A model generated the notes under the pieces. The model did no database searches, was not told the origin of the DNA, and saw only the letters and a program-made list of their open reading frames with translations. A DNA stretch of 64,000 nucleotides from Bolinopsis microptera (Eukaryota; Ctenophora; Tentaculata; Lobata; Bolinopsidae), in NCBI RefSeq assembly GCF_026151205.1, contig NW_026971774.1:90001-154000 (forward strand), written 5' to 3'. Shown here one piece after another: positions 4,034 through 62,100 of this stretch (positions within the stretch are counted from its first letter, which is position 1; each line of letters starts with the position of its first letter). The position numbers and the translations under genes were made by a program.

Positions 4034-6289
4034 AGGGAGGTAAGGATGTTGTCTGCTACTTCATCAACTGGGCCTGGTACCGACCTGGAGCTGGTAAATA
4101 TGTCCCGGAGGATATTGACCCTAAACTCTGCACTGTAGTTAACTACGGTTTCTCTGTTCTGGGAAACAACGGAAAGCTCAGGATGCACGACAGCTGGGCT
4201 GATAGGGACAACAGTGAGTTTACACTAGCTTTTTAATGTCTGATCATTTATTAATTATTAGCAACATCGTGTTGGGATATTAAGACTTTGTGTCTTCTTG
4301 AAAGCTTATTGTTTTAAAAAGTGATTCCTCAGAGTTCTACGAGAGGACGGTTGCACTGAAGAAAGCACCCGGCTCTCGAGTAAGGAAAGTTTTCCTCGCC
4401 ATTGGAGGATGGAACGACAGTCTGGGACCCAAATACTCCAACATGGTTTTGAAGAAAGCTAGCAGGTTAGGAACACTTCATAAAACTAGCATTCAGCGCT
4501 CTTCCAAGTTGAAGGTCGACTTTTATATCGAACTCTGCTCCGAAATTGTCACCTACAAAATATATGGTTTACGTTAAAATGTACATGTTTCAATTTGATA
4601 AACCCAACAGGAAAGCCTTCATCGACGATGTAGTCCCCTTCCTTCTGAAGTACGGATTTGACGGTCTGGATCTGGACTGGGAGTACCCTCAGTGCTGGCA
4701 GGGAGACTGTAAGAAGGGAAAGCAGGGAGAGAAGAAAGCTTTCGCTGACTGGTGCGCTGAACTGAAGGCTGCCTTCCAACCTCACGGTCTCCAGCTCAGT
4801 GCTGCAGTATCTGCCAGCAAGACCATTATTGATGCTGGATATGATGTGCCCAGGATCGCCAGGAGTCTGGACATCCTCAACCTGATGACCTACGATTTCC
4901 ACGGATCTTGGGAGAAACAGACCGGTCACAACGCGCCTATGTATCCTTGCGAGGGAGATGCCATCCCCTTCTTCAACGTCGTTAGTAGAGTTACTAATGT
5001 TGTTACCTAGTAACTGTAACCTAGTAACTGTAACCTAGTAACTATCCCCTTCTTCAACGTCGTTAGTAGAGTTACTAATGTTGTTACCTAGTAACTGTAA
5101 CCTAGTAACTGTAACCTAGTAACTATCCCCTTCTTCAACGTCGTTAGTAGAGTTACTAATGTTGTTACCTAGTAACTGTAACCTAGTAACTGTAACCTAG
5201 TAACTATCCCCTTCTTCAACGTCGTTAGTTGCAAGATACTTTATACTGTCACCTAGTAACTGTCACCTAGTAACTGTCACCTAGTAACTGTAACCTAGTA
5301 ACTGTAACCTAGTAACTGTAACCTAGTAACTGTAACCTAGTAACTGTAACCTAGCAACTGTAACCTAGTAACTGTAACCTAGTAACTATCACCTAGTAAC
5401 TGTAACCTAGTAACTGTAACCTAGCAACTGTAACCTAGTAACTGTAACCTAGTAACTGTAACCTAGTAACTATCACCTAGTAACTGTAACCTAGTAACTG
5501 TAACCTAGTAACTGTAACCTAGTAACTGTAACCTAGTAACTGTTTCCTTGCGAGGGAGATGCCATCCCCTTCTTCAACGTCGTTAGTTGGAGGATACTTT
5601 ATTTCCCTGTCACAGTCGCTGCTTGGTGATGGTTTTTAGAAAGACATTATCCTGCTGTTGAATTATTTCTCTATTAAAGGCTACTAAAAAATTTAAATAT
5701 AAAAACCGTTCAGGACTCTGCCGTAGACCACTGGATCAAGAGTGGATTCCCAGCCAGGAAGATTGTAATGGGACTCCCCATCTACGGACGATCCTTTACC
5801 CTCGCGGATCCTTCAAAGCACGGCATTGGTGCTCCCGCTAAAGATGGAGGTCAAGCTGGAGTCTGGACTAGAGCCAAGGGCTTCCTTGGGTACTACGAGG
5901 TAAACTTTATTTGATCGGGTATCAGGAATAGTATGAGTATTGCTGAGCCACCAGACTCTTACACTAAATGTAAAAGGGGAACAATACAATTCTCCTCCTA
6001 ATAACCTATAAAACTAAAACTAAACAACCCTCAGATCTGTCTGAACCTGAAGAACAAGGGCTGGAAGGAGGTGAAAGGAAGTGACTGTGTTGTGGGACCC
6101 TACGCCTACAAGGGAAACCAGTGGGTCGGGTATGACAGTCTCGAGTCTGTAAAGTATAAGATGGAGTATATCAAGAAGAAGGGGCTGATGGGAGGCATGA
6201 TCTGGGACGTTACTATGGACGACTTCAAGGGGGCGTGCGGTCAGGGCAAGAACCCATTCCTCACGGCTATGAGAAGACATCTTGCTTAA
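4034..6289 (+). CDS. GH18 chitinase, five visible exons, 5' exon missing
   Basis: A family 18 glycoside hydrolase, expected to hydrolyse chitin by substrate-assisted catalysis and to be secreted. Exons with matching phases are 4034-4213, 4333-4465, 4611-4980, 5714-5899 and 6035-6289. Together they give about 374 residues, close to a complete catalytic domain. The first exon reads [15 protein letters not shown], the first beta strand of the barrel. The second has FLAIGGWND. The third has [10 protein letters not shown], the DxxDxDxE active-site motif with its acid glutamate intact, and later [10 protein letters not shown]. The fourth has [11 protein letters not shown]. The fifth ends [12 protein letters not shown] followed by a stop. 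The start codon and signal peptide must lie further left and were not found. No chitin-binding domain follows. An AATAAA lies near 6432. The third intron is built from copies of exon 3's own end (separate entry). The family call is firm; the exact paralogue is not determined. Confidence 0.9.
4963..5600 (+). repeat. 81-bp repeat carrying the chitinase exon-3 end and its splice donor
   Basis: The last 18 bases of chitinase exon 3 plus its donor (cttcttcaacgtc|gttagt) recur with an 81-bp period, placing donor GTs at 4981, 5062, 5143 and 5224. After a further run of the 14-bp unit, a longer copy of the exon end (about 36 bases, starting ccttgcgagggagatgccat) occurs, with a donor at 5582. The filler between copies is the 14-bp minisatellite. 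The intron therefore offers five near-identical donors. Using any but the first would add stop-containing sequence. Confidence 0.92.
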
Positions 6290-6770
6290 ATAACCTTTCT
6301 TTAAACTTGTTTTAATGTTAACGTTTTGAATTTAAAACAACTTCATTTAAATGTTTAATTTGTATTAACTTTAATTCAACAAGTATCGGAACTTAACACA
6401 CAAAGAATCTGGAAATATATCTAAGATTTTAAATAAAAAATAAAAAGTATAAAACGTCTTTTTCGTAATCACATTGGGGCTTGGGCAGACCAGTGTAACT
6501 AATTTTACCAGATTGAGGAGCTTAATGATCACTTCTGACAGATTGAGCATGTATATGAGCTGTACAAATTCAGTTCCACACTGAAGCTATTAACCTTAAC
6601 TAGGGTTCCGACCCGAGGCACAATGCTATAAGGCAAAATGTACTGGGGCTGTAAATCTGACGAAGTTGAAATTACTTATTTTGGTCAAATTAAAACATCA
6701 ATATCTCCAATGTTGCATTTGACGGGGAGCTGAACATATCTTTTATAATAAACAAGTTTACTGCAACCTA
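6290..6770. other. Chitinase 3' flank, no gene seen
   Basis: AT-rich sequence following the chitinase stop. It contains an AATAAA-type polyadenylation signal near 6432 and otherwise no open frame or repeat that I can support. Confidence 0.5.
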
Positions 6771-59100: not shown

Positions 59101-62100
59101 GTTACGAACCTAGGAGTGGGGTTACCTGGTTACTAACCTAGGAGTGGGGTTGCCTGGTTACTAACCTAGGAGTGGGGTTACCTGGTAACGAACCTAGGAG
59201 TGGGGTTGCCTGGTTACCTGGTTACTAACCTAGGAGTGGGGTTGCCTGGTTATCTGGTTACTAACCTAGGAGTGGGGTTGCCTGGTTACCTGGTTACTAA
59301 CCTATGAGTGGGGTTGCCTGGTTACCTGGTTACTAACCTAGGAGTGGGGTTACCTGGTTACTAACCTAGGAGTGGGGTTGCCTGGTTACCTGGTTACTAA
59401 CCTAGGAGTGGGGTTACCTGGTTACTAACCTAGGAGTGGGGTTGCCTGGTTACCTGGTTACTAACCTAGGAGTGGGGTTACCTGGTTACTAACCTAGGAG
59501 TGGGGTTGCCTGGTTACCTGGTTACTAACCTAGGAGTGGGGTTGCCTGGTTACCTGGTTACTAACCTAGGAGTGGGGTTGCCTGGTTATCTGGTTACTAA
59601 CCTAGGAGTGGGGTTACCTGGTTACTAACCTAGGAGTGGGGTTGCCCGGTTACTAACCTAGGAGTGGGGTTGCCTGGTTACCTGGTTACTAACCTAGGAG
59701 TGGGGTTACCTGGTTACTAACCTAGGAGTGGGGTGGCCTGGTTACCTGGTTACTAACCTAGGAGTGGGTTGCCTGGTTACCTGGTTACTAACCTAGGATT
59801 AGGGTTGCCTGGTTACCTGGTTACTAACCTAGGAGTAGGGTTGCAGGTCTTCATGAGAGTAGTGCTGCTGCCCGAGGTAGAGTTACAAGCTGACGTGTTG
59901 TTCTGAGCCCAGACCCAACTACTCATGTTTACTGAGTTTTGTATGAGGTGCTCCACTGCTGACATTCCGAACCATTTACACACGTTTGGTATGCCTTTAC
60001 TCCTCTTCCTCTTAGTGAGGTGGGTGTACCTGGATAATAATAACAGGTGAGGTGGGTGTACCTGGATAATAGTAACAGGTGAGGTGGGTGTACCTGGATA
60101 ATAATAACAGGTGAGGTGGGTGTTGAGTGCACACCCTCTAGATGCACACATTCTCCTGAAAGTAAGAGTAGAAATACTGATAAATGACAGTGTCTCACTT
60201 GTCTAGATGGAAGATGGTCTGATTAGGTTCTGTTTGGAGTTGATCAGGAGCTGTCGTCTCCAGCAGGTTTGTCTGACTCCTGTCTGAGGAGGGGTCTTTC
60301 TCCGTCTGTGTCTCTGAATCTGACGTTACGAACCTGATCTTCATGTCTTGAGAGGACACTCCTGAAATTAATAGTGCTATTACCATGAGGCGGGGGCGGG
60401 TGGACAAAGGTTCGTCAGCTCAGCAGCCCAGAAGTGAAAGTCAGTCCTGATCGGCACAAGACTGAGGATGATACTTCTAGATAATAACACAAACTCCCAG
60501 TATGATATAAGTCTAACCTGAAGTAGTCTCTGAAGCTGTACCATCCTTCTCTGTTGATTTTCTAAGTATGGAGGGGCGCCCACACGGTACAGTACCGTTA
60601 CTCTTACCAACTCCAGGTACAGTACCGTTACTGCGGGGCTTGGAGGCATCTCCGTTGTCTCTTACTCTGTTACTTGACTGATGGAGTTGCCTGAGAATAG
60701 GGACTGTTACCATGGTTACTAATAGTGAGTTACTAAGTTACTTAGTAACAGATCTATAACTTACTAAGATATGGACTGTTACCATGGTTACTAATAGTGA
60801 GTTACCTCTCTATCACTAAGTGATTACAACTTCCTCTCCTATTCTGAACCGTCATTAACATTAACACAAATAACACAATATACTACTACACTACAAAATA
60901 TAACACTACTGCGAATATTATAAAACTAAAATACAGATTTTAGTACAAGGAAAATTAATGTAGCCCAATTGAAGGAAATCTAAGTGGGTGAGTGAGTGAA
61001 GTTGTATGAATTGTTGTTATGACAATGGGTTACCATGGTAACAATGGCTACAACGAGTAACCATAATAATAATGGTAATAATGGCTACAATGTGTTACCA
61101 TGGATACAACTTTACAATACAAACTATGAGTTACATAGTAACTGATTTAATTATTTTACCTGACTGGGAGAAACACCACAACTATTGCACCGCGGAAGAA
61201 AAAGACGCGAATGTAGCAGAATGTAAACATGACAGGAGTCAGAGGAAGAAATGAGTAGAATGATAATAAAGGGGTAAAAATAGCAATCAATTGTTTATTG
61301 AGATAACAGCTTATCCTTCTTTTGTATAGGAGTTGACAAAGAGAGAGCATTTCAAACAACGTCAATCAGAGCTGAAAAAAGAGCACAAAGAACTGGTTGT
61401 CATGGCAACAAAGGTCTGTAACAGGAAGATAGAGAGTTTGCTAATAATGAGGGATATACTACTGCTCGCTTACTCTGTCAATTTGTAACATCACTAACTC
61501 ATCATATTTTACTATATGTAATATATAATATATACTAGTAATCCTTGTAATTATTACCTCATCAATTGTCTTGCTATCTTAATTGTAATTACCAATTACA
61601 AATAATAAAGTAATAAGATACACACACGTAACCAGTTCATTAAAATGTTCATTTGTGGTGCAATTTCAGGTAGTTTACAGTAACACGTACACCTTGTAGC
61701 ATGTATATTGTATATATACATTATACATGCTACAAGTTTATAAACTACAGCAATGAGTGCTGTTGTACACTCATTATTTTATCATTTCAACCTGTTATTT
61801 CATTAATTACCTGCTATTTTATTAATTAAACCAAAACATCACTTAAAAATATTATACACATTAAATTCAAGTGGGACATGATCATGATATACATCAGTCA
61901 TTAAGAACATAACTGCATGGATAATTAATGATATACGATAGTACATAATTACATAATTACATATAATCATGTAGCGACAGTAAGACTGTGTACACAGATA
62001 GTTGTAACATGACCAATATAGCTGCTTATTAAGGTTGCAAAGTAGCATTACATAGTTACAAGGTTGCAGGTTGTACTGAGTACACTACAAGCCTTTGCCC

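Follow-up and report, generated by a model that had tools for sequence, protein, structure and literature searches.

Do minisatellites in ctenophore genes seek out exon-intron junctions, or do they reach them in the course of ordinary repeat growth? The question is raised by a 64,000-base stretch of the Bolinopsis microptera genome (C15:90001-154000, here called the window, from the scaffold C15 of 167,500 bases), where the units of several tandem arrays contain the edge of the adjoining exon together with its splice site. An earlier reading of this DNA, made from the sequence alone, had claimed five such exon-edge arrays and had treated junctions as special seeds of repeat formation. The arrangement is real and recurrent, and to us it looks to be of the same kind as the boundary-spanning minisatellites called "mirages", in a new phylum. 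A strong preference for junctions was not seen, and a mild excess is compatible with the data.

Exon-edge arrays in the window

We placed 34 junctions by curation in three genes of the window. A strict gene finder was used, a permissive version having been discarded for over-prediction. It returned the curated junctions except for the exon-D acceptor and exon-I donor of a ten-exon gene (exons A-J), an agreement that is not fully independent given that window exons supplied part of the training data for its codon table. It also extended the chitinase and B9D1 models with spurious exons. Sequence within arrays was allowed no positive coding score, and junctions there may be under-called; without this cap, several array-adjoining exons were altered.

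The chitinase (GH18) gene lies on the forward strand at 4034-6289 and is identified by Pfam, by its junctions and by the gene finder. Its five exons found, when joined, match Pfam Glyco_hydro_18 with an E value of 4.9e-88. An array cluster at 4963-5543, on the same strand, starts within exon 3 (4611-4980) and crosses its donor. The 81-bp unit, arrayed at 4963-5289, contains the last 18 bp of the exon, followed by the donor GTTAGT and by repeat of the CCTAGTAAC type, and an extra copy of the exon-3 end and intron start begins at about 5545. A 13-base match (3745 and 4024) flanks the array ahead of exon 1 and has the look of an acceptor duplication; with 7 mismatches, it was not counted as a junction copy in the 24-base test described below. 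Elsewhere in the genome, five tandem chitinase copies on contig C11 have breaks that differ from those of the window gene. C3 holds the only other strong match, an intronless copy that aligns without interruption along the full 368 residues at 76%. These paralogs thus differ in intron positions.

The four-exon B9D1 gene (11846-16121, reverse strand) was identified by its junctions and by Pfam: the joined product covers profile positions 1-166 of 166 of B9-C2 (E 3.6e-59). Because the joined product matches the whole profile, it supports the exon-2 acceptor. An array of a 68-bp unit lies across this acceptor (15124-15384, reverse strand), and each unit combines the end of the intron and its acceptor with 42 bp from exon 2. 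The unit also carries 11 bp of filler that completes GTTACCATAGTAAC.

The longest arrays belong to the ten-exon gene (44180-62331, reverse strand; exons found from junctions and the gene finder), for which neither exon J nor the exon-D open reading frame (ORF) gave a Pfam family. Tandem-repeat and junction reading placed about 197 copies of a 37-bp unit at the exon-F donor (49739-57073) and about 50 copies of a 36-bp unit at the exon-D donor (58041-59844), both arrays on the reverse strand. Both units include the exon end and the donor, and a 169-bp higher-order copy in the exon-F array repeats further exon sequence. A 32-bp array of 3.4 copies (60015-60123, reverse strand) sits either at the exon-D acceptor or within exon D. 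The gene finder, like the sequence-only reading, chose the acceptor of the last 32-bp copy (exon from 60029). An alternative TTACTTTCAG acceptor (exon from 60155) is also in frame, and would leave the array inside exon D with a 43-bp intron. Four of the five claimed exon-edge arrays (chitinase exon-3 donor, B9D1 exon-2 acceptor, exon-F and exon-D donors) therefore stand, and the 32-bp array is ambiguous. Two other features were noted in this gene. A 23-mer with GTTACCATGGTTAC occurs three times near exon G (49002, 49500 and 49593), two of them within the exon, and the segment 47190-47815 has inverted ends GGTCAATATCATTA and TAATGATATTGACC, apparently between GTTACTATGG repeats, which by eye is insertion-like.

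Similar duplications occur at stop codons and inside coding sequence, all three of the following on the reverse strand. A 45-bp array at 6960-7232 crosses the stop codon of ORF 7194-8381, and a duplication at 8844-8916 flanks the stop of ORF 8882-9697 with two copies of a 31-mer (8844 and 8886). The first stop is kept in both genes. Within ORF 7194-8381, a 63-bp in-frame duplication (7800-7885) shows as a 23-mer that starts at 7800 and again at 7863, the two copies being separated by GTTACTATGGTAAC. The claim that two BTB genes carry 3'-end duplications held for the duplications, which span or flank both stops, and for one of the genes: ORF 8882-9697 is a BTB gene by Pfam (E 0.00046), whereas the Pfam search gave no family for ORF 7194-8381. 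Among Tandem Repeats Finder rows wholly within window exons, the period is divisible by three in 5/7. Another ORF, 25172-27460, has Tudor and Schlafen AlbA_2 domains and, close to its end, a tandem repeat of 27 bp that keeps the frame.

Recurrence in a second region

The same arrangement was found in genes outside the window. We examined a second region on C1, a contig of 26,206,493 bases in the searched genome (264,652,675 bases, 232 contigs), using C1:400-490 kb for junction counts and C1:400-500 kb for array clusters. This region was picked for its repeat richness and its crowding of listed GTTACYATGGTAAC sites; the sample is therefore two repeat-rich regions, whose rates are not genome averages. 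Arrays cover 42,365/167,500 bases of C15 and 37,769/100,000 bases of C1:400-500 kb, compared with 0-32 bases in first-order Markov control sequences. Before counting, we removed by hand the C1 exons 4089-4727 (an ORF also present on C15), 12603-13544, 21970-23741, 25126-25299, 52464-52716, 54975-55148, 71031-71451, 79579-79829, 80618-80670, 81813-81937 and 83174-83235. The donor of exon 40964 was set manually at 41179, where the sequence letters point to 41176; no duplication match occurs there.

In both regions, a 24-base window around each junction was searched for a copy within 600 bases. Such a copy was found at 8/94 junctions on C1, and 10/48 array clusters there cross a junction at 6 bp overlap. 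The donors involved are 783 (34-bp unit, about 35 copies), 28575 (54-bp unit, about 44 copies), 2364 (37 bp), 19562 (52 bp), 34529 (79 bp) and 35384 (91 bp), and the acceptors are 9468 (35 bp) and 32558 (83 bp). Two weaker donors, at clusters 33999 and 88705 (7 and 11 bp of exon), were recovered by the array test only. The region includes a pair of related sushi-trypsin genes, and the exon sequences show their donors 783 and 28575 to be homologous. The units at these two donors differ in where they begin and stop and each copies its own exon's letters, so the two arrays most likely arose separately, as judged from these sequences. The recurrence implied by the sequence-only reading was thus borne out.

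Are junctions hit more often than expected?

The sequence-only reading had argued that intronic repeats placed at random would not fall on exon edges again and again. Local copies were found at 4/34 curated junctions in the window, where the levels set beside this count were 59% for intronic and 5.7% for exonic windows, and at 12/126 junction windows in both regions together. Intronic windows were duplicated far more often (58.8% in the window, 48.5% on C1) and exonic windows less often (5.1% and 1.6%). The combined duplication profile stands at 0.01 in the exon, 60 bases from the junction, and rises gradually to 0.10 at the junction itself and to 0.50 in the intron, 120 bases beyond it. A small step (0.12) at 6 bases inside the exon stays far below the intronic level, and a peak at the junction was not seen in this profile of both regions.

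Because long arrays inflate the intronic base-level rate, a base-level comparison is biased against junctions, and we therefore added a seed test. In this model of our own, each array is reduced to one seed, seeds are placed uniformly, and intron length is taken minus arrays; clusters of period below 10 were excluded (3/21 in the window). The window alone has 4/18 junction-crossing clusters where 1.2-2.4 would be expected (P 0.01-0.15, depending on the setting), in the same data in which the pattern was first spotted. For both regions, 14/66 clusters cross at 4 bp overlap against 11.5-12.6 expected (P 0.22-0.36), and 14/66 cross at an overlap of at least 6 bp against 9.8-11.0 expected (P 0.07-0.16). 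C1 alone gave 10 crossings at 4-6 bp against 8.2-10.2 expected (P 0.51-0.61 at 4 bp, 0.27-0.37 at 6 bp). Its lean toward excess appeared only at 10 bp, with 9 crossings against 5.2-6.0 expected (P 0.04-0.10). The junction rate thus lies between the exon and intron levels and the seed test is near expectation at 4-6 bp. These results lend no support to the argument from chance, nor to junctions as special seeds.

Introns in the sampled regions are short once arrays are excluded, with medians of 194.5 bp (window, 16 introns) and 148 bp (C1, 49 introns), so units of 20-100 bases would often reach exon edges without any attraction to them.

Relation to known systems

The statement that no named system shows this arrangement does not hold. 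Minisatellites across intron-exon boundaries in amphioxus were named "mirages" (PMC3087553, PMC3902484); PMC3902484 adds a case in PGBD5 and cites TnC. The amphioxus cases (Adh3 and the globins BflGb6 and BflGb9, with similar ones in PGBD5 and TnC) resemble ours in that the tandem unit joins an exon edge to a splice site and intron sequence. The ranges of unit size overlap (10-72 bp for Adh3 and 150-160 bp for the globins; 21-98 bp in the window and C1), and both 5' and 3' boundaries are duplicated in each system. Boundary-spanning units are present here in 14/66 clusters, counting those that reach 6 bp or more to each side, and at 12/126 junctions by 24-base windows. The copies retain their splice signals: donor GT is changed in 11/684 aligned letters across six donor arrays, and the acceptor signals could be read as well. 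The ctenophore arrays differ in phylum, in reaching about 197 copies, in the GTTAC..GTAAC filler of some units and in crossing stop codons. Undisturbed regular splicing and length instability, between haplotypes or in soma, are further mirage features; splicing and instability have been studied in amphioxus, whereas the ctenophore arrays are known from the sequence of one haplotype. Among the papers listed by our literature search, no report of mirages in ctenophores appeared, an absence that is weakly tested.

Two other comparisons are informative. Intron gain by tandem genomic duplication is covered in PMC3443670, and this AGGT model likewise involves a tandem duplication that copies splice-site letters. 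It makes a new intron, bounded by duplicated AGGT sites, in an exon that was continuous before, whereas the extra copies here sit in an existing intron. The 32-bp array could be a case of such intron gain. The chitinase matches on C3 and C11 have breaks elsewhere or none compared with the window gene, a pattern in which gain and loss are indistinguishable. Ordinary intronic minisatellites share unit size, homogeneity and clustering in repeat-rich regions with our arrays, but their units lack the coding sequence and splice site that are included here.

Origin of the arrays

We consider it probable, at roughly 0.7, that these are mirage-type minisatellites produced by frequent local tandem duplication and surviving where the message stays unbroken. 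Stretches of about 20-100 bp would often be tandemly duplicated in the sampled regions, sometimes with slight filler at the join, and part of these duplications would expand and remain homogeneous, the majority of them in introns. A border-crossing duplication would leave the message intact, and could survive, as long as splicing still uses the first donor or the last acceptor, or translation the first stop codon, and one wholly within coding sequence would survive mainly with a period that is a multiple of three. The arrays would then be neutral, with the authentic splice sites presumably in use.

The copying step itself may be fill-in repair of staggered breaks, or slippage. Filler at joins amounts to 11 bases in the B9D1 unit and 11 at C1 donor 34529, and palindromic GTTAC..GTAAC motifs occur at joins in B9D1 and at C1 donor 35384. 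By analogy, such filler resembles what break repair might leave when staggered ends are filled. A genome-wide search in which the best candidates were scored matched each of three units to its own array only (3/3), and these three units are of local origin. The chitinase query, which is mostly CCTAGTAAC-type repeat, matched many other places.

The palindrome GTTACYATGGTAAC acts as filler in some repeat units. It has 2950 strand matches genome-wide (1403 + 1547; sites may count on both strands), compared with 4 for the reversed pattern, and window examples lie at 7842, 15244, 15312 and 61029. Among the matches listed, which are all on C1, all but three fall within the first 0.86 Mb. The motif resembles the RFX X-box.

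Several results weigh against duplication without regard to junctions. At 10 bp overlap, both regions together gave 13 crossings against 6.4-7.8 expected (P 0.002-0.016). Crossings comprise 11 donors and 3 acceptors (one-sided P 0.029, array clusters), and the 12 matches of the 24-base test divide into 9 donors and 3 acceptors. Arrays also look scarcer at other loci, with 226-256 bases of about 3.3 kb at four C11 loci and 426 of 4.1 kb at locus L009 on C3. The donor lean may come from tolerance or from a donor-linked cause. The first AG past the branch point tends to be used, and acceptor duplications may therefore harm more than donor ones; such greater harm would yield a donor lean without a donor-linked cause.

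A donor-linked cause would make junctions, chiefly 5' splice sites, mutational hot spots at which R-loops, paired nicks or transcription breaks seed arrays. 5' splice sites would then be favoured for tandem duplication, a transcription- or break-linked process would add the GTTAC..GTAAC filler, and arrays of up to about 200 donors would arise repeatedly. The excess at 10 bp, the 11:3 ratio and the palindromic filler at some joins (B9D1, C1 donor 35384) are consistent with this. We nevertheless regard it as unlikely: the profile has no junction peak, C1 alone is non-significant at 4-6 bp and borderline at 10 bp, and like duplications occur across stop codons and within coding sequence.

Selection could instead keep the extra splice sites as decoys or splicing regulators. 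The exon-F array would fit, with 0/391 GT letters aligned to the donor deviating from the unit. In the exon-D array, GT letters are altered more often (10/110) than the exon part (34/825), and a functional reading of GT conservation is not supported. Missing change is hardly informative where whole arrays are near-identical, and 7/11 donor units have a length not divisible by three, such that splicing at an internal copy would throw the message out of frame. Selection of this kind is very improbable.

An assembly artefact deserves equally little weight. C15 is a short scaffold rather than a large contig, and long arrays assemble poorly, but substitutions distinguish the copies (0 to 16%, depending on array and part) and a like arrangement lies within the 26.2-Mb contig C1. 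It is more doubtful still that a mobile element, introner-like or other, inserted at splice sites and left target-site duplications: repeat filler does lie between some duplicated edges, as at 7800-7885 and in chitinase intron 3, but the unit is built of letters from the host exon itself, and near-identical copies at unrelated loci were not found for the three units searched, each confined to its own array, although short or diverged copies could escape such a search.

Mirage-type local duplication, as read here, would extend a phenomenon described in lancelets to an animal phylum far removed from them, where it is dense enough for statistics. Should the mild excess at junctions increase as data accumulate, a new mutational process would be indicated. 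Where one true donor stands next to tens or even about 200 near-identical ones, the choice of site by the spliceosome is put to a natural test, and such donor arrays would be raw material for intron change.

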